A DNA stretch of 64,000 nt, taken from NCBI RefSeq assembly GCF_900215155.1, contig NZ_LT907980.1, forward strand, positions 2,852,001 through 2,916,000, written 5' to 3'. The notes under the pieces were generated by a model. That model did not search any database and was not told the DNA's origin. It saw nothing but the letters and a program-made list of their open reading frames with translations. Origin of the DNA: Marinobacter sp. LV10R510-11A. Lineage in GTDB: Bacteria; Pseudomonadota; Gammaproteobacteria; Pseudomonadales; Oleiphilaceae. Positions 49,672 to 63,360 of this stretch are shown here, piece by piece (within the stretch, counting starts at the first letter, position 1; every line of letters starts with the position of its first letter). The translations under genes and the position numbers were made by a program.

Positions 49672-50045
49672 GAACCACTCGTCTTACGGGCGTAAACCAG
49701 ATTGATTCCAAAAGTGTAGTCCACAGTTCCATGCACGGCTATTTCATAACCGGCGCATTCATTCGCTTCTGACTTTATGCGGTAATGCAGCCTTCAGACA
49801 TAATGATGGCGGTAATCGCGGCCATGGTGCTGGCATTCCCAACCCGCCGCGCGGCCTTCTACGAAGCACACCAGCGCGTACTAGCAACCTTCTACGGCAG
49901 CGCTACTTGTTGCCGGGTTAGATGTACTAACAGGCTGCCGAGGGGCTCAAAGCTGAAATCCGGCAGATTTAACAAATTTACAATCACCAAAAAAATTGAG
50001 TAGACTGCTGGAATATGAGTTGACCTACTGCGAATGGAATCGAAT
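49672..50045. other. Gene-free region between the GGDEF gene and the accessory island
   Basis: I find no gene I can support here. A frame near 49785-50003 (PSDIMMAVIAAMVLAFPTRR) has no family match. Composition shifts from GC-rich (49.7-49.95 kb) to AT-rich (after about 49.96 kb), which marks the likely left boundary of the AT-rich insertion carrying the next two genes. Confidence 0.5.
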
Positions 50046-50618
50046 ATGAAATACATAGGCAGGACAGCCTTAATCATCTTACTGAGCCTTTCAGAAATTG
50101 CCTGTGCCTCCCAAGATCTCAATGTGCTTGTGCCTGTCGAAGCAAGAGCAGCAACATCAGGCATTACAATAAACCGCACAGCCCATCCCATTATGCTTCC
50201 TCTAGGAACTCTTGCCGGTGCAACTTTTATAGGTAGCGAAGGGGAACTGATAGTCTACGAGGGTAACAAAGGTCTCTATGCCAGTGTCGTTACGCAAGAA
50301 GACTGGGGCACCACTCTGGCAGATTTTCACCGCGTACCAGAGTATGTTTTTAAACGTGACCTCGCCTCAATCCATGACCCAGAGTTTCGAAAGGAGCTTG
50401 AGGGCATAATCCTCATAACACTCGAGCCTGCTGTAGAAAAGGTTTTGAGCGTGATGACAATTGGTAAAATTACAGCCTACATTGCCTTCAACCCTGAAAA
50501 ATCAATCATCATGCTTTCCTCTCCAGATAAGCCAGACTTGTTTACACGACTGGTATTAAATAGGTTTAGCTGGGAAGAAATTGAAAACGAGATCTTGAAA
50601 GGAATCAAGGAACACTAA
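50046..50618 (+). CDS. Unknown secreted or periplasmic protein
   Basis: A 190-aa protein starting MKYIGRTALIILLSLSEIAC with a signal-peptide-like helix. The cleavage site could be type I after ACA, or a poor lipobox (SEIAC). The mature part contains MLPLGTLAGATFIGSEGELI and an alpha-rich C terminus. I recognise no domain. The sequence is AT-rich compared with flanking genes. It is 2 nt from the next gene and likely cotranscribed. Confidence 0.6.
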   Translation: MKYIGRTALIILLSLSEIACASQDLNVLVPVEARAATSGITINRTAHPIMLPLGTLAGATFIGSEGELIVYEGNKGLYASVVTQEDWGTTLADFHRVPEYVFKRDLASIHDPEFRKELEGIILITLEPAVEKVLSVMTIGKITAYIAFNPEKSIIMLSSPDKPDLFTRLVLNRFSWEEIENEILKGIKEH

Positions 50619-50620
50619 AC

Positions 50621-51049
50621 ATGCTCTCAAGGACGGAAAAAGAAGATCTTTTGGCGGTTATCGACATTCTTTTTGATGATAATCAGCTACGTAGATTAAA
50701 AAGCAACTTCAATGAAGATACCGCATATATTGTCGAGCAGGCTATAGAAGAGCTTATAAAGTGCAATGCCAGCATGAAAGAGCTTGTGACAGGATTAGTA
50801 GCGGGAGCTTCCATACTTACGGGCGGTTGGTTAAGACAATCGCTGGACAAAATTGCGCAAGCCCTTCGTGACAAGCAGTTGCAGTTTGATGGAATGGCGT
50901 GCCGGAACCAGGGTAGCAGCCAATTTCCGGCAACAAATCTACCTTTCCACCTTTTAGTAGCTGCCGGATACTTCGTATTCGGTATCATGCGTTCTTCTCT
51001 GGCAACAGGAGCCGGCCGTGACGGACCGCACCTCGCAATCCGATTCTGA
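50621..51049 (+). CDS. Unknown protein, C terminus possibly foreign
   Basis: A 142-codon frame. The first 90 residues form an amphipathic, charged protein (EKEDLLAVIDILFDDNQLRR, IEELIKCNASMKELVTGLVA). The last 50 residues (GMACRNQGSSQFPATNLPFH and on) look unlike a natural domain and overlap the start of cobS, so the original gene may have been cut at about 50895. Partner of the preceding unknown gene. Function unknown. Confidence 0.45.
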   Translation: MLSRTEKEDLLAVIDILFDDNQLRRLKSNFNEDTAYIVEQAIEELIKCNASMKELVTGLVAGASILTGGWLRQSLDKIAQALRDKQLQFDGMACRNQGSSQFPATNLPFHLLVAAGYFVFGIMRSSLATGAGRDGPHLAIRF

Positions 51050-51827
51050 CTCCTCAGCATTCGAACCACCACGCAGCTCGCTGCGTTCCCGTGAATGGCA
51101 GGCGTTCTGGCTGTCCATAGGTTTTCTCACCCGCATTCCCATGCTGGTGCGCATCGATTACTCCCAAAAGCTGATGAATCAGTGCAGCATGTACTTTCCG
51201 CTGGTCGGCCTCTTGCTGGGCGCACTCTATGCCGGATTATTCACGCTCCTCAGCTTGGCATGGAGCCCGCTGGCCTGCGTGCTGCTGGTGATGTGCTTCC
51301 ATCTGTTTATTACTGGCGCCTTCCATGAAGATGGCCTTGCCGACAGCGTGGATGCGTTGGGCGGAGGCTATACGGTTGAGAAGCGCTTGGAAATTATGAA
51401 AGACAGCCGCATCGGCACCTACGGCACCGTGGCTTTGGTGATGGCCCTGGGCTTGAAGGCTGCGCTGTTGATGGACACCCAAAGCATCTGGCTGGCGCTT
51501 TTGTTAGTGCCCGCTATCAGCCGTGTAACGCCACTGCTATTGATGGCGTTTATGCCATACGTAACCGATCCGGATAAAAGCAAAAGTAAGCCTGTGGCAG
51601 AAGCCTTTTCCCGCCGCCGATTGATGGTCAGCTGTGCTTTTACCGCGCTGATCGCGCTCGTATTCAGCTTCTGGTTGCCAGGGCTGTGGCTGGCGGCACT
51701 CACTGCAATCATTACTGTCGCGCTGCTATGGGGTTGGTATCTGCAACGGCAACTGGGCGGTTACACCGGCGATGCACTCGGGGCCAGCGTGGTGTTTTGT
51801 GAATTGGTGCTGCTTTTGGGAGTGTAG
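51018..51827 (+). CDS. cobS: Adenosylcobinamide-GDP ribazoletransferase (cobalamin synthase)
   Basis: A 269-aa membrane enzyme that joins adenosylcobinamide-GDP and alpha-ribazole, the last steps of cobalamin assembly. It has about six helices and the family motifs IGFLTRIPMLVRIDYS, GAFHEDGLADSVDALGGGYT with the Asp-rich metal site, MKDSRIGTYGTVALVMAL and GGYTGDALGASVVFCELVLL. It begins at GTG with AGGAG upstream. No other cobalamin gene is adjacent and no cobalamin riboswitch was seen, so it seems separated from its pathway operon. Confidence 0.92.
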   Translation: MTDRTSQSDSDSSAFEPPRSSLRSREWQAFWLSIGFLTRIPMLVRIDYSQKLMNQCSMYFPLVGLLLGALYAGLFTLLSLAWSPLACVLLVMCFHLFITGAFHEDGLADSVDALGGGYTVEKRLEIMKDSRIGTYGTVALVMALGLKAALLMDTQSIWLALLLVPAISRVTPLLLMAFMPYVTDPDKSKSKPVAEAFSRRRLMVSCAFTALIALVFSFWLPGLWLAALTAIITVALLWGWYLQRQLGGYTGDALGASVVFCELVLLLGV

Positions 51828-51835
51828 ACACTGCA

Positions 51836-51863
51836 TTGACTCCCAGTATCATGCCCTTATAGT
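51836..51863 (+). promoter_or_regulatory. Sigma70-type promoter for the HipA-like/DUF3037 pair
   Basis: TTGACT and TATAGT are 16 nt apart, 46 nt upstream of the GTG start of the HipA-like gene. A close match to the -35/-10 consensus; not tested. Confidence 0.5.
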
Positions 51864-51909
51864 GGTGTGACTTCTTTATCAGGCATAAGAGAAAGGAATC
51901 AACTAACCT

Positions 51910-52662
51910 GTGTCGCCTCCAGAACAATCCGTCGTCGAGATAGTCGAGGTTATCCGTCGCTCAGAGCAAGGTATAACTCGTCCATTTATTTGTCGTGGTG
52001 ACGACGATAATACGTATTTCGTGAAAGGGTTTGGTGCCGGCAGAGATAGTCAGATCAAGGAATGGATCGCGGGCAATCTTGCTCAAAACTTTGGCATACC
52101 TGTAGCGCCATTTAGCATCGTTTACGTACCTGAAGAGTTAATCGAATTACTTTCAGTCGAACAAGCTAGTGATCTTGGTACTGGGCCAGCTTTCGGCTCC
52201 GTTGAGCAAATGGTGACGGAGCTATCGTACTCTCAAGTTAACAACGTCGGTCCCGAGCTTCGGCGCGCCGTCCTGTTTTTTGACTGGTGGATTTCCAATG
52301 CAGATCGCATGCTGACAGAGAGCGGAGGAAATCCGAACCTATTTTGGGAGCCCAATACCCAGCGCTTAGTCGTAATTGATCATAACCAAGCTTTTGACTC
52401 AGAGTTCTCTAACGAGGAGTTCTTTAAATTTCATATATTTAAAGATTTCGCACCTGGTATCTCCGATGACTTATTGGAACGAGAGCACTATACTTCGAGA
52501 GCAGAGCAGGCTCTTCACAACTGGCGATCCATTATGGATAGTATTCCAGAGGAATGGCTTTATAGCGATCAGGAAATGACGATGAAAATCAACCTGAATC
52601 TGGATTCACTGCTTGAGAATCTTCAACGCTTTAACAACGGTGATTTCTGGAGTCGGAAATGA
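51910..52662 (+). CDS. HipA-like kinase-domain protein
   Basis: A 250-aa protein of the short HipA-like kinase group. Kinase features are an ATP-lysine in TYFVKGFGAG (Lys39), a catalytic-loop-like segment DWWISNADRM with Asp132 followed by NPNLFW (Asn143), and a metal-binding aspartate in LVVIDHNQAFD (Asp157). Classical HipA toxins (about 440 aa) phosphorylate GltX; this version lacks their N-terminal subdomain and has no HipB-like HTH partner. It starts at GTG and overlaps the DUF3037 gene by 4 nt (ATGA). Both lie beside a type I restriction system. Substrate unknown. Confidence 0.8.
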   Translation: MSPPEQSVVEIVEVIRRSEQGITRPFICRGDDDNTYFVKGFGAGRDSQIKEWIAGNLAQNFGIPVAPFSIVYVPEELIELLSVEQASDLGTGPAFGSVEQMVTELSYSQVNNVGPELRRAVLFFDWWISNADRMLTESGGNPNLFWEPNTQRLVVIDHNQAFDSEFSNEEFFKFHIFKDFAPGISDDLLEREHYTSRAEQALHNWRSIMDSIPEEWLYSDQEMTMKINLNLDSLLENLQRFNNGDFWSRK

Positions 52663-53507
52663 CTAGGTTCGCGTGTCAATACGCCATAGTGCGATTTATG
52701 CCTTACATTGAAACCGGCGAGTTTGCCAATGTCGGTATATTATTGTGGGTGCCAAAAACACGCCACTTAAGCTTCAAGTTATTGCGTCGAAAATACGCCC
52801 GGATCACCCAGTTTTTTGAAGAGTTGGACAAGGCTGTTTACCTGAAAACCATGGCTAACATAGAAGCAGAACTGTTTAGGGTTCAAAGTATGATGCTTCA
52901 TAACAAGACCACCGAGTTTAGTGGTAACGTCATGGAATACGGCTTCCATAATGGCATATTCGACGAGCTGATTCGTCCCAGAGAAACCATCGCGCGATTC
53001 AGCGAGCGGCGCAGCATCCTTTCTGAAGATCCACAGAAAACCCTGCAAGAGTTATTCGACTATTACGTTGGCCGGAACTTCGTAACCAGGGAATACCAGG
53101 AAACTATTCTGGAAAAAGGTATCAAAAAACTACTTGAACAACGCAACTTGGCTCGCCACTTCTCAAAACGCAAAGTTGAAGATCATCTTTATAGCGTCAC
53201 ATTCCCATTTGTCGAACAAGACGACGATAAAGCTATAAAAGTTATAAAACCCCTATTTCTTGGACAAGCTGACTCTACAGCGATTATCGAGCACGGCGGT
53301 CACTGGAAACTCAAGGTGAACCAGCTGAGGAAGCGTAACTTGCTTCATGGCCCAGTTCTATTTCCAGTTAAAGGGCCCGAAGACGTTCCCCCTTCAGACA
53401 TCAGATTTCAGGCCTTCGAAGAAGCGCGGGATTCTCTGGCGGACGATGCTATTGAGGTGGTGCTATACACTGAAAAAGACAGCATCCTAGAGTTCGCCGC
53501 TCATTAG
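52659..53507 (+). CDS. DUF3037 protein, partner of the HipA-like kinase
   Basis: A 282-aa soluble protein. The N terminus CQYAIVRFMPYIETGEFANV followed by GILLW is the DUF3037 hallmark. The rest is mixed alpha/beta with no catalytic motif that I can name (RPRETIARFSERRSILSEDP, LFDYYVGRN). Translational coupling by the 4-nt overlap with the HipA-like gene implies a fixed stoichiometry, perhaps target adaptor, antitoxin or effector. No function is established for the family. Confidence 0.8.
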   Translation: MTRFACQYAIVRFMPYIETGEFANVGILLWVPKTRHLSFKLLRRKYARITQFFEELDKAVYLKTMANIEAELFRVQSMMLHNKTTEFSGNVMEYGFHNGIFDELIRPRETIARFSERRSILSEDPQKTLQELFDYYVGRNFVTREYQETILEKGIKKLLEQRNLARHFSKRKVEDHLYSVTFPFVEQDDDKAIKVIKPLFLGQADSTAIIEHGGHWKLKVNQLRKRNLLHGPVLFPVKGPEDVPPSDIRFQAFEEARDSLADDAIEVVLYTEKDSILEFAAH

Positions 53508-53656
53508 CAGTTAAGAACCACGCCACTTACTCAGCGATGTGCCGCAGCGGCAACCGGCAGCGCGATCAGTTATGGCCATGTAACCAAAGGAAGTGGCTCA
53601 GTTATTATTGGGTAAGCTCAGAAGCCAACAAAAGGCAGCTCCAGAGTTTACTCGCT

Positions 53657-56600
53657 TCAAGATCCGTCGCTGACTTGGTGCTGCTTGAAATTCTCCGCCT
53701 GCTCAAAAATTTCCTTGTACACCTCATCACGGTCTACCGGCGGGTAGCCGTGTTTTGCCAGCAGAAGAATCAGACCAACTTTCAATTCGGCCTTAATGTC
53801 CTCGCGCTGGTTCCAATCGGTGTATTTTACTTTTTCCTGTACCACTACTTTGACGGCTTTCGCCAACGGTAACAGCTTGTCTTCCGGGTAACTGAAATCG
53901 TACTTAATGGCTAGGTCTTTCAGAATGTCGTAAAAGGCTTTCTCTTCAAGATCAATGCCCAGCTCTTCAAACGATCCGAGCTCCTGCTTCAGCGACTGAA
54001 TCAGATCCATATAACGGTCGATGATGGTATCGGTGAAATCTTCCAGCACATTGCCGACTAAAACATCATCTTCCTTGCGTTCGTTATAGTGCTCCACCAA
54101 CGCCTTGAGCTTCTTGGAGAAATCCACACCCTTAGCTTTGTTTACTTTTTTGAAGTCATCAATGGCCTTCGCCAGCAATTGTTGCAGCAGCTTGATTTTG
54201 GTATTTGGCAGTTTGATCTTGTCGATCTTGGCCAGGTAATCGGCGTCAAAAATGTCAGTTTCGCCTTGGCTCTCACTGCCCATCTTGAAAATCTCTTCCA
54301 CACCGTCACTTTTCAGCGCTTCTGCGACCATCTGGCGCACTTTGGCATTCATCTGAGCGCTGTCCGGCGCATTGCCACGGGTCAGTTTGAAAACAATGGA
54401 GCGCACCGCCAGGTAAAAATGAATCTGGTCACGCTCACCCTGGCTGACACCCTCCGAGCCGCTGCAAATGTCATAGGCCACTTTCAGGCGTTTAACCAGA
54501 TGCATAAAGCGCTTCTCAAACTTGTAAGTGGTCTGGGCAAACTCCGCCGCCTTGGTCAGGCAATGCAGCTGCTCTAAAGGGCTGCCGTGATAATAGAGCT
54601 GGCTGTCGAACGGGTGAAATAGTTTGTTGAGTAGATCGAGGTGGTCTTTCACCACCACAATGGACTGGTTGATCTCTTCGATATTCTGCTGATCCGCTTT
54701 GTTGTAGTGCGCCAGTGCCAGATTCATCTGTTTTTTGATGCCGATGTAATCCACCACCAGGCCCTTATCCTTGCCCTCAAACTTACGATTTACCCGGGAG
54801 ATGGTCTGGATCAGGTTGTGGCGCTGAATGGGCTTATCAATGTACAAGGTATCCAGAAATGGCACATCGAACCCGGTCAGCCACATATCCACCACAATAG
54901 CGATTTTGAAGTTGGATTTGGGGTCTTTGAACTGCGTGGCCAGATCCTTGCGGTAGTCTTTGGTGCCCAGCAAGTCGTAAAGCTCTTTGTCGTCATCCTG
55001 ACCGCGAGTCATGATCATTTTGATCCGCTCCAGAGGTTTAAGCGCCTTTCGTTCCTGTTCGCTCAACTCGGCTCCGGCTTCACACTCCAGCACTTCGTTC
55101 CATTGTGGTCGTAGGGCAATCACTTCCTGAAACAACGCCCAGGCAATATCTCGTTTGCTGCACACAAACATCGCCTTGCCTTTGACCGATGAACCCTCTT
55201 CAACCCGACGTTCGTAATGGTGCACAAAATCCAGCGCCAACGCCCGCAACCTGTCCGGGTCCCCCAGAATGGCGTTCATCTGCGCGCTGGCCTTCTTGCT
55301 TTCCTCGATCTGATAATCGCTGGCGCCGTCATCCGCACAACGGGCGTAATAAGCCTCAACTTCCTCCAGCTTGCCGTTATCCAGGATCACCTTGGCCGCA
55401 CGGCCTTCGTACACAATGCGCACGGTAATCTCATCATGCACCGACTCAGTCATGGTGTAGCTGTCCACCACCGGGCCGAACACATCCAGCGTCGCGTCAA
55501 TGGGGGTGCCGGTGAAGCCTACGTAGGTAGCGTTGGGCAAAGAGTCGTGCAGGTATTTGGCGAAGCCGTAGGTGCGCTGAACGCCTTTCTCGGTCACACG
55601 CACTTTCTGATCCAGGTTGACTTGGCTGCGGTGCGCCTCATCAGAAATGACAATAACGTTGGTACGATCGGTGAGTAGCTGGGCGTCTTCGGTAAACTTG
55701 TGAATGGTGGTCAGAAATACCCCACCACTGTTACGGCCCTTGAGCAGCTCACGCAGATGGGCGCGGCTTTCCACACTCACAACAGCTTGATCGCCAATGT
55801 AGTTTTTTGCATTGGTAAACTCGCGGGACAGTTGATCATCCAAATCGGTACGGTCGGTGATCAGCACAAGCGTGGGGCTTTCAAAAGCCAGGCTTTTCAT
55901 CAGCAACCGCGCCAAAAACAGCATGGTAAAGCTCTTGCCGCAGCCGGTCGCACCAAAGTAGGTACCGCCCTTGCCGTCGCCTTCCGGCTTACGGTGTTGC
56001 AGGATATTGGCATACAGCTTGTTGGCAGCGTAAAACTGCGGGTAACGGCACACCACTTTTACTTCCTGATTGGACACATCCGGAAAGTAGATAAAGTGAC
56101 GAATCACCTGGCGCAGCCGATCCTGGTTGAACAAGCCCTCAATCATGGTGTGCAGGCTATTAATGCCATCTTGCCCAATAATTTCGTTGCCGCTCACTTT
56201 GCGCCAAGTATAGAAAAACTCATAGGGCGCAAACAACGAGCCCATTTTGCTATTAACGCCGTCGCTGATTACACACAACGCGTTGTACTTCATCAACTGG
56301 GGAATATCCCGGGCATAGCGGGTGGTCAGTTGCATGTAGGCGTCATGAATGGTGGCTTCTTCGCGCACTGCACTTTTGAACTCAAACACCACCAGCGGCA
56401 GGCCGTTGATGTAAAGCACGGCATCGGGAATGCGCTTCTCGCTGCCGGTGATTTCCATCTGGCTCACCAGCTTGTAAATGTTGCGGGGGCCACCGTAGCT
56501 TTCCGGCACTTCCGCCGCCAGCGTGAATACCTCCCCTTCACGGGGCAGGCGCATTTCCGCCAGGCCTTGGTAATCAATCAGCTGGATATAGAGGTCTTTG

Positions 56601-56896
56601 CGGCTGCGGTCTTCCCTTTTTAACAAGAAACCGTCGGCGACCATTTTGTGAATCGCTTTGTTGGATTCGTACAAGTCGAGCGGGGAGAGGCTTTCCAGCC
56701 GGCGAATGATGGATTCGACTTCAGCCGCGGTAATGTGATCGCCTTCGTAACGCTTGGTTAGAAACGCCGTTAAATCGGCTTTAATCAGCACATCGGTGGG
56801 TTCGCGCACCAGGGAAGAACCGGGGCAATAGGGGTAACCCTGAGCCTGCAGCAGTTCGATGATGGCCTGTTCCAGCCGTGCTTCATTAAAGCCCAT
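53657..56896 (-). CDS. hsdR: Type I restriction enzyme, endonuclease/translocase subunit
   Basis: A 1079-aa HsdR. The N-terminal nuclease domain has RIPDAV (Asp158) and VVFEFKSA (Glu172, Lys174), the D-ExK site. The SF2 motor carries Walker A GATGCGKS (315-322), motif II ISDEAHRSQ (419-422) and later motifs DMWLTGFDVPFLDTLYIDKP and QTISRVNRKFEGKDKGLVVD. A helical C terminus binds HsdM. With HsdS and HsdM it forms the complex that cleaves unmethylated DNA. The gene looks intact. It follows higA by 9 nt and is separated from hsdS by about 1.1 kb. Confidence 0.95.
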   Translation of the reverse strand: MGFNEARLEQAIIELLQAQGYPYCPGSSLVREPTDVLIKADLTAFLTKRYEGDHITAAEVESIIRRLESLSPLDLYESNKAIHKMVADGFLLKREDRSRKDLYIQLIDYQGLAEMRLPREGEVFTLAAEVPESYGGPRNIYKLVSQMEITGSEKRIPDAVLYINGLPLVVFEFKSAVREEATIHDAYMQLTTRYARDIPQLMKYNALCVISDGVNSKMGSLFAPYEFFYTWRKVSGNEIIGQDGINSLHTMIEGLFNQDRLRQVIRHFIYFPDVSNQEVKVVCRYPQFYAANKLYANILQHRKPEGDGKGGTYFGATGCGKSFTMLFLARLLMKSLAFESPTLVLITDRTDLDDQLSREFTNAKNYIGDQAVVSVESRAHLRELLKGRNSGGVFLTTIHKFTEDAQLLTDRTNVIVISDEAHRSQVNLDQKVRVTEKGVQRTYGFAKYLHDSLPNATYVGFTGTPIDATLDVFGPVVDSYTMTESVHDEITVRIVYEGRAAKVILDNGKLEEVEAYYARCADDGASDYQIEESKKASAQMNAILGDPDRLRALALDFVHHYERRVEEGSSVKGKAMFVCSKRDIAWALFQEVIALRPQWNEVLECEAGAELSEQERKALKPLERIKMIMTRGQDDDKELYDLLGTKDYRKDLATQFKDPKSNFKIAIVVDMWLTGFDVPFLDTLYIDKPIQRHNLIQTISRVNRKFEGKDKGLVVDYIGIKKQMNLALAHYNKADQQNIEEINQSIVVVKDHLDLLNKLFHPFDSQLYYHGSPLEQLHCLTKAAEFAQTTYKFEKRFMHLVKRLKVAYDICSGSEGVSQGERDQIHFYLAVRSIVFKLTRGNAPDSAQMNAKVRQMVAEALKSDGVEEIFKMGSESQGETDIFDADYLAKIDKIKLPNTKIKLLQQLLAKAIDDFKKVNKAKGVDFSKKLKALVEHYNERKEDDVLVGNVLEDFTDTIIDRYMDLIQSLKQELGSFEELGIDLEEKAFYDILKDLAIKYDFSYPEDKLLPLAKAVKVVVQEKVKYTDWNQREDIKAELKVGLILLLAKHGYPPVDRDEVYKEIFEQAENFKQHQVSDGS

Positions 56897-56905
56897 TGTT
56901 TGCCC

Positions 56906-57286
56906 CTAAGCTGTTTGGCCGTTTCGATGAGTCGAGTGTTTTATCAGGCTTTCGGCTGGAATTGAAAAAGAGCTATGTAAACCCTCAATCATCCGAAGCG
57001 TCAGTGGGCGCTTACGAGCCAAAATTTCATAGACGCGATTCTTGCGCCCAATCACCGGAACAAGATCTTCTACCGTAAGCCCTTGCTGCTCCATACGGAA
57101 TTTGATGGCTTCAATAGGATCGGGGAAGTCGATTGGATAATGCTTTCGCTCATACGCTTCAACAAGGGTCACTAAAACGTCTAGACGATCACCTTCCGGC
57201 GAGTTTGCCTCCGCCATCATCAGAGACTCAATTTCTTTAAGCGTCTCACTATAGTCTGTGTCCGATTTAATGGGACGAATGTCCAT
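56906..57286 (-). CDS. higA: HigA-type antitoxin
   Basis: A 126-aa HigA-like antitoxin (COG5499 type). The N-terminal part reads DYSETLKEIESLMMAEANSP with YERKHYPIDFPDPIEAIKFR. The C-terminal helix-turn-helix reads MEQQGLTVEDLVPVIGRKNR and RPLTLRMIEGLHSSFSIPAE. It should bind its own promoter and neutralise a HigB RNase. Its own toxin gene upstream is broken (next entry). It sits directly in front of hsdR on the same strand with AGGTGA before the ATG, so it could now act as a regulator of hsdR. Confidence 0.85.
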   Translation of the reverse strand: MDIRPIKSDTDYSETLKEIESLMMAEANSPEGDRLDVLVTLVEAYERKHYPIDFPDPIEAIKFRMEQQGLTVEDLVPVIGRKNRVYEILARKRPLTLRMIEGLHSSFSIPAESLIKHSTHRNGQTA

Positions 57287-57294
57287 AATTCACC

Positions 57295-57402
57295 TTAGAT
57301 TGTCTGTACATCGATTTCGTCGTACTGCCGATGGGTACCGACAAAACGGATGTAAACCACTCGATATGGATAGTTAATCCAAACCATCAACCGATACTGT
57401 AT
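57295..57402 (-). pseudogene. HigB toxin, C-terminal remnant
   Basis: The minus strand encodes YRLMVWINYPYRVVYIRFVG followed by THRQYDEIDVQTI and a stop, the conserved C-terminal half of HigB mRNA interferases, 8 nt before higA as in intact higBA pairs. The first 60-65 residues are absent; the fragment ends where the RelB/ParE-like pair begins. The toxin is inactivated. Confidence 0.8.
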
Positions 57403-57428
57403 ACTGCTTTGAGAAGAGGAGACAAAAC

Positions 57429-57629
57429 ATGAGCGCTCAATTATCACCGATCGTGTCCGAATTTGAGACCGAGGAACAAGCGGTCAGCTATGATCACTGG
57501 TTCCGCGCCAAGGTGCAGGAAGCGATGAACAGCACAAAGCCAAAACTGGCACATGACGAAGCCATGTCGAAGGTGCGGGCTGAACTTGAAGAACGCAGGA
57601 AAGCCCGTGCTAACCGTCCGCTGGTCTGA
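57429..57629 (+). CDS. RelB/ParD-like antitoxin (stability-determinant type)
   Basis: A 66-aa antitoxin: LSPIVSEFETEEQAVSYDHW followed by FRAKVQEAMN and a basic, disordered tail (ELEERRKARANRPLV). This pattern pairs with ParE/RelE toxins. It has a strong ribosome site (AGAGGAG) and a TATACT -10 box at 57400-57405. Its end overlaps the toxin start by 23 nt. Operon points opposite to hsdR and hsdS. Confidence 0.82.
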   Translation: MSAQLSPIVSEFETEEQAVSYDHWFRAKVQEAMNSTKPKLAHDEAMSKVRAELEERRKARANRPLV

Positions 57630-57882
57630 GGAAGCCACCAGCGACCTTATTGAAATCATCGATTACATCGACCAGCGTAACCCCATAGCGGCGCTATCTC
57701 TACACTCTGAAATATTGCGCACCGTAGAAAGCCTTCCAGCAGCACCTCTGATCTTCAAAGGCGGGCGAGTAACCGGCACTCGCGAGGCGGTTGTCCACCC
57801 GAATTATCTTGTGGTCTATCAGGCGGGCGTCGAGTTCGTCGATATCCTGCGAATTCTGCACTCACGACAGGAATACCCTTAG
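57607..57882 (+). CDS. ParE/RelE-family toxin
   Basis: A 91-aa toxin with the ParE fold: VLTVRWSEEATSDLIEIIDY, IDQRNPIAALSLHSEILRTV, FKGGRVTGTREAVVHPNYLV and VEFVDILRILHSRQEYP. The RILHSRQ.YP ending and RVTGTRE strand are typical of the family. I start it at GTG 57607 (AGGAAA upstream); a longer frame from 57553 lies inside the antitoxin gene. ParE proteins inhibit gyrase and RelE proteins cleave mRNA; which activity this has is not clear. Confidence 0.87.
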   Translation: MLTVRWSEEATSDLIEIIDYIDQRNPIAALSLHSEILRTVESLPAAPLIFKGGRVTGTREAVVHPNYLVVYQAGVEFVDILRILHSRQEYP

Positions 57883-57967
57883 GGTTTCCCCGCCCTATAG
57901 GCGCTCGCAAGCCACCCCCTTTGGCTCATCCATGAACCTAGCCATGAAATCAGAGCACCTCGGCGAT

Positions 57968-59287
57968 TTACTGCTCGCCCTCGGGGATGCGGAGTTCGCC
58001 GGAGAGGAGTTTGGGAAGGAGGGTATCTCTCAGAGTTATAAGAGCTTCATTTGCAGTATCTAGAGCTTTTTTTCGACTCGTCATTGCTGAGACCTGTTTG
58101 CTGTACTCTTCGAGCGCTTGGAGCTTAGGAAACACCATTTTCTTTGAGTAAATTACGTTTCGATTGACCCCGGGAACTGCTGAGTCCTCGCCCATAGACC
58201 TAATATCGAACAGCTGAAGAGCTTGATAAATCCAGTACAGTGGAAGTCCAGAATTATTCACAACGTAGAAAACCGTGTCGATCGGGAAAAAATCTTTCTC
58301 TACCCAGTATAGCGAACCAACGGTGCCCTTCCTTCCAACGATGATTCCCGGCCCCTTTACAAGCGCCGCGTTATGGAACCCTGTAGCGCCCCCTGAACCA
58401 TAAACCGGGATCAATCCGGGAACCCGGACAGAAACGGCCAGTGACTTACCGTATGCAAGCTCAATTTTGGACCCAAAAGATGCAACCTCCCACCCCTCCG
58501 GCACCCATCCCATTTCCTCGGTTAACACAAACCGATCCGGGAACTGATGCTGAATGGCGACAGGCAGGGGTTTGCGCTGGTCACCCAGCGTTTTGCGGGC
58601 TTCGGCGCGGGCGCGGAAAGGTTCGGGAATGGGATTGCCGGCAGCCATGGCGTTGTCAATCACCGGGTCGAAATCGACGAACCAGCTTTTGAACAGGGCT
58701 TGGGCCATGGCTTCTAGGGTGGTGTTCATTTGGCGGTTGAGGTCGATTTTTTCGTCGAGGGTACCGAGAATACATGCTATTGCTTTTTGCTCTGTCAAAG
58801 TTGGCAATAGAATCGAAAAACTCTTGAGATAGTTTAGATTTGTTTTCGGAACGCCCGTTGACTCTGAGTCGCGTATGATTCTCTCGACACTACTCGCAGA
58901 CGACACATAATAGTACACAAAGAGTGGGTCAGCTTTACGCCGATCAACAGAAAGCTTCATTTGGTTTGAGGAAATTAAATACTTAGAAAACGGTGTATCA
59001 GGCACAAATCCTGTTTGACCCAATGTGCCTTTTTTCGTAAAAACTATATCGCTGGGAATACAAATGCTTCTCGAAAGCCTCTCAGCAGTTTCCTCAGACA
59101 CATACACAAATTCAGCAGCACGGAAACGACCTAGCCCCAACGTCAAATTACTCCCTCTTATAACTGGCACTCCTGATTCCGTATAAGATGAAGCTGGTAA
59201 ATTTGACCCAAAGGGTCCATCAACTAGGCCATGGTTTCCGGCGCGAGCGATTTCACCAAGAGTTGATAAGTTCCACTCACTCCCCAT
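57968..59287 (-). CDS. hsdS: Type I restriction enzyme, specificity subunit
   Basis: A 439-aa HsdS with two target-recognition domains: TRD1 at about 1-165 ([46 protein letters not shown]) and TRD2 at about 265-410 (PEGWEVASFGSKIELAYGKS, IIVGRKGTVGSLYWVEKDFF). The repeated helical spacers are LTEQKAIACILGTLDEKIDL and SKQVSAMTSRKKALDTANEA. The spacer region is GC-rich while both TRDs are AT-rich, as expected when TRDs are exchanged. The bipartite target site cannot be predicted. It overlaps hsdM by 11 nt. Confidence 0.93.
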   Translation of the reverse strand: MGSEWNLSTLGEIARAGNHGLVDGPFGSNLPASSYTESGVPVIRGSNLTLGLGRFRAAEFVYVSEETAERLSRSICIPSDIVFTKKGTLGQTGFVPDTPFSKYLISSNQMKLSVDRRKADPLFVYYYVSSASSVERIIRDSESTGVPKTNLNYLKSFSILLPTLTEQKAIACILGTLDEKIDLNRQMNTTLEAMAQALFKSWFVDFDPVIDNAMAAGNPIPEPFRARAEARKTLGDQRKPLPVAIQHQFPDRFVLTEEMGWVPEGWEVASFGSKIELAYGKSLAVSVRVPGLIPVYGSGGATGFHNAALVKGPGIIVGRKGTVGSLYWVEKDFFPIDTVFYVVNNSGLPLYWIYQALQLFDIRSMGEDSAVPGVNRNVIYSKKMVFPKLQALEEYSKQVSAMTSRKKALDTANEALITLRDTLLPKLLSGELRIPEGEQ

Positions 59288-60878
59288 AACCCAACCCCTC
59301 CAAATTCTCCCGAATCACCACATCCAGCCGTTCCGCTTCCGCCATCTGTTGATAAAGAGTCTTACTCAATTCGGTCATTTTCACTTCAAAGGGAATGCCG
59401 TCATCTTCAATCGCAGCTGCGCCCACGTAACGGCCAGGGGTGAGCACATAATCGTTAGCTTTGATGTCAGCCAGAGTGGTGGCTTTGCAGAAACCGGGTA
59501 GGTCTTCATAACCGCCGTCTTTGGCTTCGCCGCGCCAGGCGTGGTAGGTGCGGGTGATTTCGGCGATGTCGTCGGTGGTGAGCTCTTTGTGGGTGCGGCT
59601 GATCATGGAGCCCATGTTACGGGCGTCGATGAATAGCGTTTCGCCTTCGCGGCTACGGTGGTTGCTGTCGCTGTGGCCGGTAATGGTCTGTGCCTTTTTG
59701 TTCTTGGTAACGAACCACAGGCACACCGGAATCTGGGTGGTGTAAAACAACTGACCGGGCAGGGAGATCATGCAGTCCACCAGGTCGTTTTCGATCAGCT
59801 TCTGGCGAATGGCGCCTTCACCGCTGGTGTTGGTCGACATGGATCCGTTGGCCATAACGAAGCCGGCGGTGCCCTGTGCTGACAACTTGGACACCATGTG
59901 CAGAATCCACGCGTAGTTGGCGTTGCCGGTGGGCGGCGCATCGTAACCCGCCCAGCGCGGGTCGGTGCTGAGCTCGTCCGCGCCGCGCCAGGCTTTCATG
60001 TTGAACGGCGGGTTCGCCATGATGAAGTCGGCTTTCAAATCCGGGTGCTGGTCTTTGAAGAAGGTATCCGCCGGTACGTCGCCAAGGTTGCTGGCGATGC
60101 CGCGAATGGCCAGGTTCATTTTCGCCAGCTTGTAGGTGGTGGCGGTGTATTCCTGGCCGTATATGGAGATGTCTTTCTGGTTGCCCTCGTGGTTGCGCAG
60201 AAACTTCACCGACTGCACAAACATGCCACCGGAGCCGCAACAGGGGTCGTAAATTTTGCCCTGATAAGGCTCGATCATTTCCGCCAGCAAATTAACGATG
60301 CACTTGGGGGTATAGAATTCGCCACCGCCCTTGCCTTCGGTGGCAGCGAATTTGCCGAGGAAGTATTCGTACACCCGGCCCACCAGGTCTTCTTCATTGC
60401 CTCCGGGTTTGGTACTGCTTTGGTCACTCACGGTGGCAATGTTGTTGATGGAATCAATCAACGCAGCCAGCTTGCTGGCCTCCAACCCCATGCGAGAGAA
60501 GTAGTTATCCGGCAATGCGCCCCTTAATGACGGGTTCAGCTTTTCAATGGAATACAGAGCCGTGTCGATTTTTACGGCAATGTCGTCCTGCTTGGCCTGT
60601 TTTTGCAGGGTATTCCAGCGGGCGTGCTCCGGCAGATAGAACACGTTTTTCATGGTGTAAAACTCCACCATGTCTACGTAGGCTTCTTGTCCCTCGTTAA
60701 TCAGCGCCTGCTTGCGGGCTTCAAATTTGTCACTGACGAATTTCAGGAAAATCAGGCTCAGCACCACGTGCTTGTATTCCGACGATTCCACCGTGCCGCG
60801 CAGCTTGTCGGCGGTATCCCAGAGGGTTTGTTCGAAGGTGCGGGTGTTCTTTTTTACGAAGGAAGACTGCTTGCTCAT
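59277..60878 (-). CDS. hsdM: Type I restriction enzyme, methyltransferase subunit
   Basis: A 533-aa N6-adenine methyltransferase: N-terminal helical domain ([20 protein letters not shown]), [20 protein letters not shown], the SAM-binding motif [17 protein letters not shown] and catalytic motif [17 protein letters not shown]. Start at ATG 60878 is supported by AAAAGG and gives the usual HsdM length; the frame up to 60929 is not conserved. First gene of the hsdMS transcript. Confidence 0.95.
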
Positions 60879-60954
60879 GAACTGCCTTTTTACGGACTCG
60901 GTGGTAACAGATCCAATAATGGCAGGCATGATAGCGCTTACGAAGAGTAGGCGT

Positions 60955-61623
60955 CTAACCCTCCACGGAATACGACAAAATGCGCGATAACTGGCTGTAT
61001 GGCAGGCCTGTTTCCTGGTGCCAGTCGGTAAAAGCCGTCTGCGCTTGCTGCAGCCCTTTTATACTCGTTGGCGAGGCATCCAGAAGATCGGCGTGGCGAA
61101 GACCCGTAATCACATCGTGAGACAGAATGAAGCCATCCCAGCCGACACGGCGCAGAAAATACTGAGCGCTGTTACCACCCAAGCGGGCACCGTTGCGTTT
61201 AAGCCAAAGCAACAAACCAAACTGATCTTCCGACGGCCACTGCTGCAAGAAAGCACCAAAACTGCCGTATTCCCGCGCGGCATCCACAATCATGCGGGCG
61301 TTCTCCGGCACCGTTCGAATCTTCTGCATGTTGCGCACAATGCGTTCATCACGGGCCAGCTCTTCCAGAACATCCGGCGGCACCTGCTGCCAATAGGCGG
61401 GTACAAAACCGTGGAAAGCCGCTTCGAAACCCGCCCACTTGTTATCAATAACACGCCAGACAAACCCCGCTTTAAACACACAACGGGTGATCTCTGAAAG
61501 GTAGCGATCATCCGTTCGCAGCTCCAGCTCCGTGGCAGGTAGCAATTTTGGCAGCAACGCGTTCAGCGCTTCAACGCCACCTTTTCGCGCAATTGCGCGC
61601 TCATGAATATTCGAAAAACGCAT
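60955..61623 (-). CDS. DNA-3-methyladenine glycosylase I-like protein
   Basis: A 222-aa protein of the Tag family (helix-hairpin-helix-type base-excision glycosylase): ERAIARKGGVEALNALLPKL, RYLSEITRCVFKAGFVWRVI, GFEAAFHGFVPAYW and RNGARLGGNSAQYFLRRVGW. It should remove 3-methyladenine from alkylated DNA. It lacks the zinc-snap cysteines of E. coli Tag, as do many long-branch members, so the substrate range may differ. Lies 76 nt upstream of hsdM on the same strand. Confidence 0.82.
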   Translation of the reverse strand: MRFSNIHERAIARKGGVEALNALLPKLLPATELELRTDDRYLSEITRCVFKAGFVWRVIDNKWAGFEAAFHGFVPAYWQQVPPDVLEELARDERIVRNMQKIRTVPENARMIVDAAREYGSFGAFLQQWPSEDQFGLLLWLKRNGARLGGNSAQYFLRRVGWDGFILSHDVITGLRHADLLDASPTSIKGLQQAQTAFTDWHQETGLPYSQLSRILSYSVEG

Positions 61624-61851
61624 AATTTCTCGTCTTTTGGGTATTGATGGAACTCTTAGAATTTAATATCACATTCGTATTAATAGTGACCTAACTCAAT
61701 TCCAATTTGTCACTTCTCAACTACCCTGTTGGCTAACGATCTGGAAATCGTAGTCCCGCTTGGCTGGATAAGAACAACAACATTCACAGCCTGGATCGGG
61801 AATTTCATTGGCTCTATACATAGCTGTCGGTGTGGATAAAGGAGAAGTGCT

Positions 61852-63360
61852 GTGAATGATAAGAACCGCCCCACGGAAAACCCTTCGGATAACCCTTTAG
61901 ATAATTCTTTAAATAACTCGCCAGATGATCAGTCCAACGACCCAGAGCAGGATTTGGCAACGCGGTTTCCCACCGCCTATACCATTCTTTTTCTGCTGAT
62001 CATTCTCGTTGCTGCCCTGACCTGGATCATACCTGCCGGCCAATACGACCGGGCGATGAACGAAGAAGTCGGGCGCGAGGTAGCCGTGCCTGGTACCTAC
62101 CAGACCGTCGACCCCAACCCTCAAGGCTTTATGGACATTATGCTCGCGCCTACGGCCGGGTTCTATGATCCCGATAGCTATGTGGCCAACGCCATTGATG
62201 TTGCCCTATTCGTGCTCTTCCTTGGCGGTTTCCTTGGGGTGATGAACGCCACGGGGGCAATTGATACTGGTATACGCAGCGCCATGCGCCATCTCAAAGG
62301 CCATGAAATCTGGATGATACCAATCCTGATGACCCTGTTTGCCATCGGCGGAACAACCTATGGCATGGCCGAGGAGACCCTGGCTTTCTATGCCATTCTG
62401 ATACCAGTAATGATGGCCGCGGGGTACGACGCCGTAACCGGGGTGGCTATTATTTTGATCGGAGCCGGTATCGGCGTACTGGGCTCCACCATCAACCCGT
62501 TTGCCACAGTCATCGCCGCTAACGCGGCCGACATACCGTTTACTGACGGCATTGTCGTGCGCTTTATTCTGCTGATTGGCGGCCTGCTGATCTGTGCGGC
62601 GTACGTTATGCGTTACGCACTGCGCGTAAAAGCAGATCCCTCCCGCTCTGTTGTCGCCAAACAGTGGGATGCTCACCGCCGGCTGTTCCTAGGCAAGCAT
62701 GAGGATGAATTTCATGACTCCACACTCACCAGAACACAAATTATTGCCCTCCTGATCTTCGCCGCAACCTTCGTTGTCATGATCTGGGGCGTATCGTCAC
62801 AGGGCTGGTGGATGGCCCGTATGGGCGCACTGTTTTTTGGCGCAGCCGTTGTGATCGGTATTGTTGCCCGTCTTGGCGAGAAAAAGCTCACCGGCAGCTT
62901 TGTTGATGGCGCACGTGATCTCTTGGGTGTTGCGCTTGTTGTAGGCCTTGCACGGGGCATTGTGGTGATCATGGATCAAGGGATGATTGCCGATACCATT
63001 TTGCACAGCGCTGAAGCGTCTCTGGGCGGCCTGCCTGAATTGGCGTTTATCAACCTGATGTTCTGGATAGAGGTGGGCATGAGCTTCTTCGTACCCTCTT
63101 CATCCGGTTTGGCGGTTCTCTCCATGCCGATTCTGGCACCGCTTGCGGACTTCGCTAACGTGGGGCGTGATCTTGTCGTAACCGCTTACCAGTCTGCCAA
63201 CGGCCTGGTAAACCTGATCAACCCAACCTTTGCCGTAGTGGTTGGTGGGCTGGCGATTGGCCGTGTGTCCTACGATCGCTGGATCGCATTCATCTGGCCT
63301 TTGCTATTGATTCTTACCATTTTCATTTCGGTGGTTATCAGTGCAGCCGCACTGGTTTAA
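61852..63360 (+). CDS. YfcC-family carrier, probable arginine/ornithine-linked transporter
   Basis: A 502-aa transporter of the YfcC/DcuC-like superfamily with about 12 helices: TAYTILFLLIILVAALTWII, PAGQYDRAMNEEVGREVAVP, ALFVLFLGGFLGVMNATGAI and MFWIEVGMSFFVPSSSGLAV. A polar N-terminal tail contains Asp/Asn/Pro/Ser repeats (NPLDNSLNNSPDD). Starts at GTG after AAGGAG. It lies 14 nt before arginine deiminase, so it most likely exchanges arginine for ornithine in the deiminase pathway, as ArcD does in other bacteria. That assignment is from context. Confidence 0.82.
   Translation: MNDKNRPTENPSDNPLDNSLNNSPDDQSNDPEQDLATRFPTAYTILFLLIILVAALTWIIPAGQYDRAMNEEVGREVAVPGTYQTVDPNPQGFMDIMLAPTAGFYDPDSYVANAIDVALFVLFLGGFLGVMNATGAIDTGIRSAMRHLKGHEIWMIPILMTLFAIGGTTYGMAEETLAFYAILIPVMMAAGYDAVTGVAIILIGAGIGVLGSTINPFATVIAANAADIPFTDGIVVRFILLIGGLLICAAYVMRYALRVKADPSRSVVAKQWDAHRRLFLGKHEDEFHDSTLTRTQIIALLIFAATFVVMIWGVSSQGWWMARMGALFFGAAVVIGIVARLGEKKLTGSFVDGARDLLGVALVVGLARGIVVIMDQGMIADTILHSAEASLGGLPELAFINLMFWIEVGMSFFVPSSSGLAVLSMPILAPLADFANVGRDLVVTAYQSANGLVNLINPTFAVVVGGLAIGRVSYDRWIAFIWPLLLILTIFISVVISAAALV

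Follow-up and report, generated by a model that had tools for sequence, protein, structure and literature searches.

A HipAD-like kinase–DUF3037 gene pair on a defence island of Marinobacter sp. LV10R510-11A

Two overlapping genes in a 64,000-nucleotide stretch of the genome of Marinobacter sp. LV10R510-11A (contig NZ_LT907980.1, positions 2,852,001 to 2,916,000; this whole stretch is called the window below) are, judged by sequence comparison, homologues of the known phage-defence pair HipAD, and probably they form a toxin-antitoxin module in which the second protein, HipD, restrains the kinase HipA until phage infection. The claim rests here on homology, on the kinase residues, on the coupling of the two genes, on the defence island that they share and on relatives that lost the kinase but kept HipD. 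The kind of system, HipAD, is already known; what is added are the island, its absence in six relatives, the pattern of kinase loss and a fold prediction for HipD. A pair of genes first read as unknown is assigned to a named system of phage defence. Two handles on HipAD result, one on its trigger and the other on the role of the antitoxin's second domain.

The gene pair and its relation to HipAD

The two genes, the domains of HipD and the promoter-like site upstream are located as follows.

51836..51863, plus strand: promoter-like site TTGACT-16-TATAGT, 5' of hipA (10 of 12 consensus positions)
51910..52662, plus strand: hipA, HipA_2-family kinase, predicted toxin (GTG start, 250 aa; Pfam, PADLOC PDC-M66A)
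52659..53507, plus strand: hipD, DUF3037 protein, predicted antitoxin (ATG start, 282 aa; Pfam, PADLOC PDC-M66B)
52680..53069, plus strand: DUF3037 domain of HipD, residues 8–137 (Pfam)
53076..53504, plus strand: C-terminal domain of HipD, residues 140–282, predicted restriction-endonuclease-like fold (structure prediction, fold comparison)

Pfam assigned the kinase to HipA_2 (PF20613, E 1.9e-98, 329 bits at a cut-off of 27) and HipD to DUF3037 (PF11236, E 4.2e-25, 88.7 bits at a cut-off of 22.6), the latter being the only DUF3037 match in the source genome (4.44 Mb, one contig). In NCBIfam, no family was found for the kinase and the matches of HipD all lay far below the cut-off. An earlier, sequence-only reading of this DNA had described a HipA-like kinase gene overlapping a DUF3037 gene by 4 nt, with Lys39, Asp132 and Asp157 intact and HipB absent. 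Both frames, their overlap and both Pfam domains were confirmed, the three residues are present and invariant across an alignment of 71 kinases, and no HipB-like gene was found next to the pair, which is flanked by cobS upstream and by a convergent hsdR downstream. The "good promoter" of the same reading survived only in part: TTGACT-16-TATAGT is present, and L010 and L011, both close relatives, retain its two hexamers, but as promoter evidence the site is weak (five such sites were counted in 51780–53720, compared to 2.5 ± 1.8 in shuffles).

Among the PADLOC models, the kinase matched PDC-M66A (E 3.8e-15) and HipD matched PDC-M66B (E 6.2e-24). Phage records searched with HipD yielded three matches, only one of them annotated, in Escherichia phage PhiR5_1, where the pair is labelled "HipA toxin" and "HipD antitoxin" and likewise overlaps by 4 nt. 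The homology spans most of both proteins, with 87 of 250 columns identical between the kinases (35%) and 73 of 238 between the HipDs (31%). The low identity to the tested systems (31–35%) counts against the proposed function, and PhiR5_1 is a prophage whereas the window pair resides on a chromosomal island with type I restriction. In plasmid records, 22 matches to HipD were found, none of them more than 60% identical; a contig scan returned four loci only, probably because its query was a single sequence.

In its architecture, with the gene of a HipA_2 kinase ahead of that of a DUF3037 protein and no HipB, the window pair agrees with HipAD/DS-6 and PDC-M66. The DefensePredictor study (PMC13092281) describes this kinase–DUF3037 architecture for DS-6, for which the name HipAD was adopted from Brenes and Laub 2025, and states that a change in the kinase active site abolished defence and that AlphaFold3 predicted contacts between both proteins and, more weakly, with DNA. 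DUF1829 has been reported in the second protein of DS-6, DS-6B; Pfam gave no DUF1829 match in the HipD of the window or in that of PhiR5_1, and a genome search for this domain, being silent in the controls too, was uninformative. According to a report on Retron-Sda1 (PMC12548924), protection from phage Bas51 by a HipA/DUF3037 pair beside this retron, called PDC-M66 by PADLOC, does not require the retron, and within the operon deletion of the kinase abolished Bas51 defence and deletion of DUF3037 was toxic. Likened by its described domains, this pair has the same two domains as that of the window and is a standalone toxin-antitoxin defence. No reverse transcriptase was found among the window genes in 50034–63360 that were scanned with family libraries, and Rfam at the gathering score returned no family in the window, a retron RNA family included. 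HipAD homologues have already been tested in E. coli (PMC13092281, PMC12548924); because the same architecture was published as DS-6/HipAD and PDC-M66, the term "uncharacterised" applied to the pair by the sequence-only reading is untenable.

Membership in HipBA or HipBST was ruled out, there being no HipB or HipS. In contrast to HipBA, the window kinase has no gene for a helix-turn-helix antitoxin of the HipB type nearby (its neighbours encode CobS and the DUF3037 protein), and with 250 aa it lacks subdomain 1, the N-terminal stretch of about 100 aa that precedes the kinase core. HipT of HipBST is reported to act together with HipS and HipB (PMC8262856), whereas no hipB-hipS-hipT set occurs here and the gene upstream of the kinase is cobS. 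Both HipT and CtkA (Helicobacter pylori structure) are 13–14% identical to the window kinase; the predicted kinase model fits the structures of CtkA and HipA, its residues 20–250 aligning with residues 149–428 of Shewanella HipA.

The island and its type I restriction genes

Comparison with relatives delimited an island of about 9.1 kb with hipAD, hsdR-hsdS-hsdM, an antitoxin-like gene and PaaA2-ParE. Both neighbours named by the sequence-only reading, a type I restriction system and a toxin-antitoxin cassette, are present.

51828..60954, strand not applicable: island, about 9.1 kb, between cobS and an adenine-glycosylase-like gene (comparison with relatives)
53657..56896, minus strand: hsdR, type I restriction subunit (family libraries)
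56906..57286, minus strand: 126-aa antitoxin-like protein (N-terminal third of PADLOC PD-Lambda-2_B, E 4.3e-44)
57429..57882, plus strand: toxin-antitoxin genes, PaaA2-like (57429–57629) and ParE-like (57553–57882) (family match)
57968..59287, minus strand: hsdS, type I specificity subunit (PADLOC-type family match)
59277..60929, minus strand: hsdM, type I methyltransferase (family libraries)

The same site lacks the island in six relatives, which were those compared among eight stretches around the g61852 gene (L074 and L075 were left out, their cobS being located on another contig). In three of the six (L068, L070 and L073) a few tens of bases separate cobS from the adenine-glycosylase-like gene, and in the other three (L069, L071 and L072) the distance is about 0.7 kb; this interval contains a gene of the Ysc84 family in L069, and L072 has a similar frame there. 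No tRNA gene was found in the window and no tRNA integration site was seen. The 126-aa antitoxin-like protein, for which no Pfam family was detected at E 0.01, is adjoined (56906–57447) only by a 50-aa frame that by eye resembles the terminal part of a HigB-type toxin; the 126-aa protein may be another antitoxin retained on the island without its toxin.

A check for defence-island enrichment had been proposed from the sequence alone. In the genus, type I restriction genes, of several types, are located no more than about 10 kb away from 10 of the 12 HipD loci (those of G440 being fragments), although owing to shared descent these ten loci represent fewer than ten independent events. Near the remaining two (G009 and G018), BLAST detected no type I restriction gene; restriction genes at the fetched loci were sought by BLAST against a few references among longest-ORF calls, and absence in these two genomes is unproven. 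Given that the 37 genus genomes, each of about 4 Mb, hold 29 hsdR over the cut-off, the chance that a random place falls within 10 kb of hsdR is, by arithmetic, roughly 0.5%, the hsdR model missing some types (e.g., that of G040). The whole genome G000 has six hsdR over the family cut-off, two of them with an internal stop, which is many compared to 29 in all 37 genomes.

An hsdR at least 78% identical to that of the window occurs in 5 of the 37 genus genomes, and in all five HipD is present at the same locus; two genomes of other families (G051 and G054) have an hsdR 69–73% identical and no DUF3037. At four loci (L012, L018, L020 and L022) the pair is flanked by hsdS on one side and hsdR on the other. 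In G040, a genome from outside the family, hipA-hipD form the end of an hsdR-hsdM-hsdS operon that is of another type. Between hipAD and hsdR of L018 (7580–8149, 4061–5638) there are also a DUF6933 gene (PADLOC PDC-S63, E 1.4e-87) and a protein partly similar to PADLOC viperin models (E 1.9e-13). A divergent kinase-DUF3037 pair was observed in G034 (L023:9144–10768) inside another type I restriction locus, with one 246-aa gene, by eye of the SprT/YgjP metallopeptidase type, between the pair and hsdR.

Coupling of the two genes and loss of the kinase

Co-occurrence of the two genes, likewise proposed for checking, held for every DUF3037 gene found in the class sample: DUF3037 exceeded the cut-off in 11 of 369 gammaproteobacterial genomes, and a HipA_2 gene was located just upstream on the same strand in 11 of 11. 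HipA_2 exceeded the cut-off in 13 of those 369 genomes, the other two matches (G176 and G157) being weak and without DUF3037. At four of the 11 loci (L056, L058, L060 and L062) the DUF3037 frame is shorter (131–210 aa, stop to stop) and the kinase more distant, which suggests, from sequence, that DUF3037 alone may suffice as the partner of the kinase. These four loci possibly represent a second type of system without the long C-terminal domain. The HipD genes of two more of the 11 (G235 and G340) look degenerate.

The coupling extends to viral contigs, for which the counts refer to loci returned by two pattern scans, with some contigs in both sets. HipA sequence was present just upstream in 25 of 25 HipD loci (one broken and one cut by the contig end), and HipD sequence just downstream in 51 of 51 HipA loci (one with a short frame and one cut by the contig end). 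In the viral locus L134, a shortened HipD frame adjoins a kinase cut by the contig end.

Within the genus, DUF3037 was found in 12 of 61 genomes, and every one of these frames is open. The kinase is intact in eight of the 12, absent in three (G004, G434 and G447) and broken in one (G440); G440 and G447 are drafts of 83–85% completeness, in which assembly errors are possible. In G004 most of hipA has been deleted, and what is left in front of it is the leader with part of the promoter-like site. One weak, lone HipA_2-like match without DUF3037 was seen in G445. Four losses of the kinase compared to none of HipD, in few and related genomes, fit a toxin held by its antitoxin, and these natural kinase-loss alleles of Marinobacter are ready comparisons of HipD with and without the kinase.

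When the window was compared with L010 and L011, dN/dS was 0.19–0.23 for hipA, 0.055–0.073 for hipD and 0.055–0.067 for the first 1000 codons of hsdR. Between L010 and L011 the order of the two genes was reversed (hipA 0.08, hipD 0.14), and faster change of the kinase is therefore not general.

Proposed mechanism, alternatives and the second domain of HipD

HipD would bind and silence the HipA kinase, a step supported by the deletions reported for the homologue (PMC12548924). Phage infection would then disturb HipD, the freed kinase would phosphorylate a protein needed for growth or for phage replication, and the infected cell would halt before phage release. The tRNA synthetases or translation factors that the sequence-only reading suggested looking for would be possible targets, although the published passages on this family name none. 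In our view, the most likely trigger would be that the C-terminal domain of HipD recognises either phage DNA or a phage protein. The sequence-only reading had proposed a toxin-antitoxin or anti-phage module in which DUF3037 controls or targets the kinase. As to the kind of module it is borne out by the published homologues, the defence island and the pattern of gene loss, but not as to novelty; neutralisation is likewise supported by the published homologues, whereas for DUF3037 as the kinase target there is no evidence and this candidate was dropped.

On its island the pair is accompanied by hsdRSM and by another toxin-antitoxin pair, and HipD occurs in all 5 of the 37 genus genomes that have an hsdR of the window type (at least 78% identical). 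Toxin-antitoxin modules often stabilise islands, and the pair might accordingly be an addiction module that prevents the loss of the island, or of the restriction system, from the genome, with phage defence being secondary. We consider this improbable, because homologues are reported to protect against phage (PMC12548924, PMC13092281). Three genus genomes without the kinase, furthermore, retain HipD and the restriction genes, i.e., the loci persist free of the toxin, and pairs are found on phages and plasmids; at two loci of the genus no type I genes were detected with the pair. About equally doubtful is a back-up of restriction, in which the kinase would be held silent as long as the type I enzyme is intact, to be released when a phage anti-restriction protein blocks that enzyme; PrrC with EcoprrI is the model for such a release. 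The proximity of 10 of the 12 genus HipD loci to type I genes of several types would suit it, as would the hipA-hipD genes that end the hsdR-hsdM-hsdS operon of G040 and the four loci embedded between hsdS and hsdR, but plain clustering of defence genes accounts for the linkage equally well. Moreover, no type I system adjoins the retron-linked or the prophage homologues, which defend or occur without one; none was detected near two genus pairs, and G051 and G054 have an hsdR 69–73% identical without any DUF3037.

A regulatory or housekeeping kinase pair outside defence is by far the least probable explanation. The low dN/dS of hipA and hipD (window compared with L010 and L011) suits any conserved function; however, the presence of the pair is patchy (12 of 61 genus and 11 of 369 class genomes), its genomic places differ, sites without the island exist, and phages and plasmids carry it. 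A housekeeping role was rejected.

The second domain of HipD is of particular interest. This C-terminal half is predicted, from its structural model, to fold like a PD-(D/E)XK restriction enzyme. When solved structures were searched by a sequence profile of each protein, no credible relative was found (best E 0.094 and 0.25), and relatives among them emerged by fold comparison only. A canonical (D/E)XK site was rejected for HipD, as residue 195 is V, I or A, never acidic, in 63 of 63 closer and 22 of 22 diverse sequences. E148, K197 and E/D211 are conserved in 22 of 22 diverse HipDs (61, 63 and 61 of 63 in the closer set), and D175, which is not universal, in 13 of 22 and 55 of 63, respectively; the conserved residues are ordered as in the permuted site of the CCGG family. 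By our reading of the strand limits in the HipD model, Phe182–Phe184 rather than Asp175 lie opposite Lys197, which counts against an active permuted site.

A more specific proposal, which we regard as rather unlikely, is that the antitoxin in HipD is fused to a DNA reader resembling a restriction enzyme. The DUF3037 part would clamp the kinase. The PD-(D/E)XK-like domain, whose site would be permuted (E148...D175...K197...E211-H212) like that of CCGG-family restriction enzymes, would bind or cut phage DNA and thereby free the kinase. If true, HipAD would act as a single switch that couples the recognition of DNA to a phosphorylation that stops growth, and in Marinobacter it would serve as a back-up of the type I restriction system with which it travels. 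In a viral structure library, three matches fell under E 0.001, all of them unnamed, and a restriction endonuclease of a Synechococcus phage ranked fifth (E 5.4e-3), in weak agreement with the fold reading.
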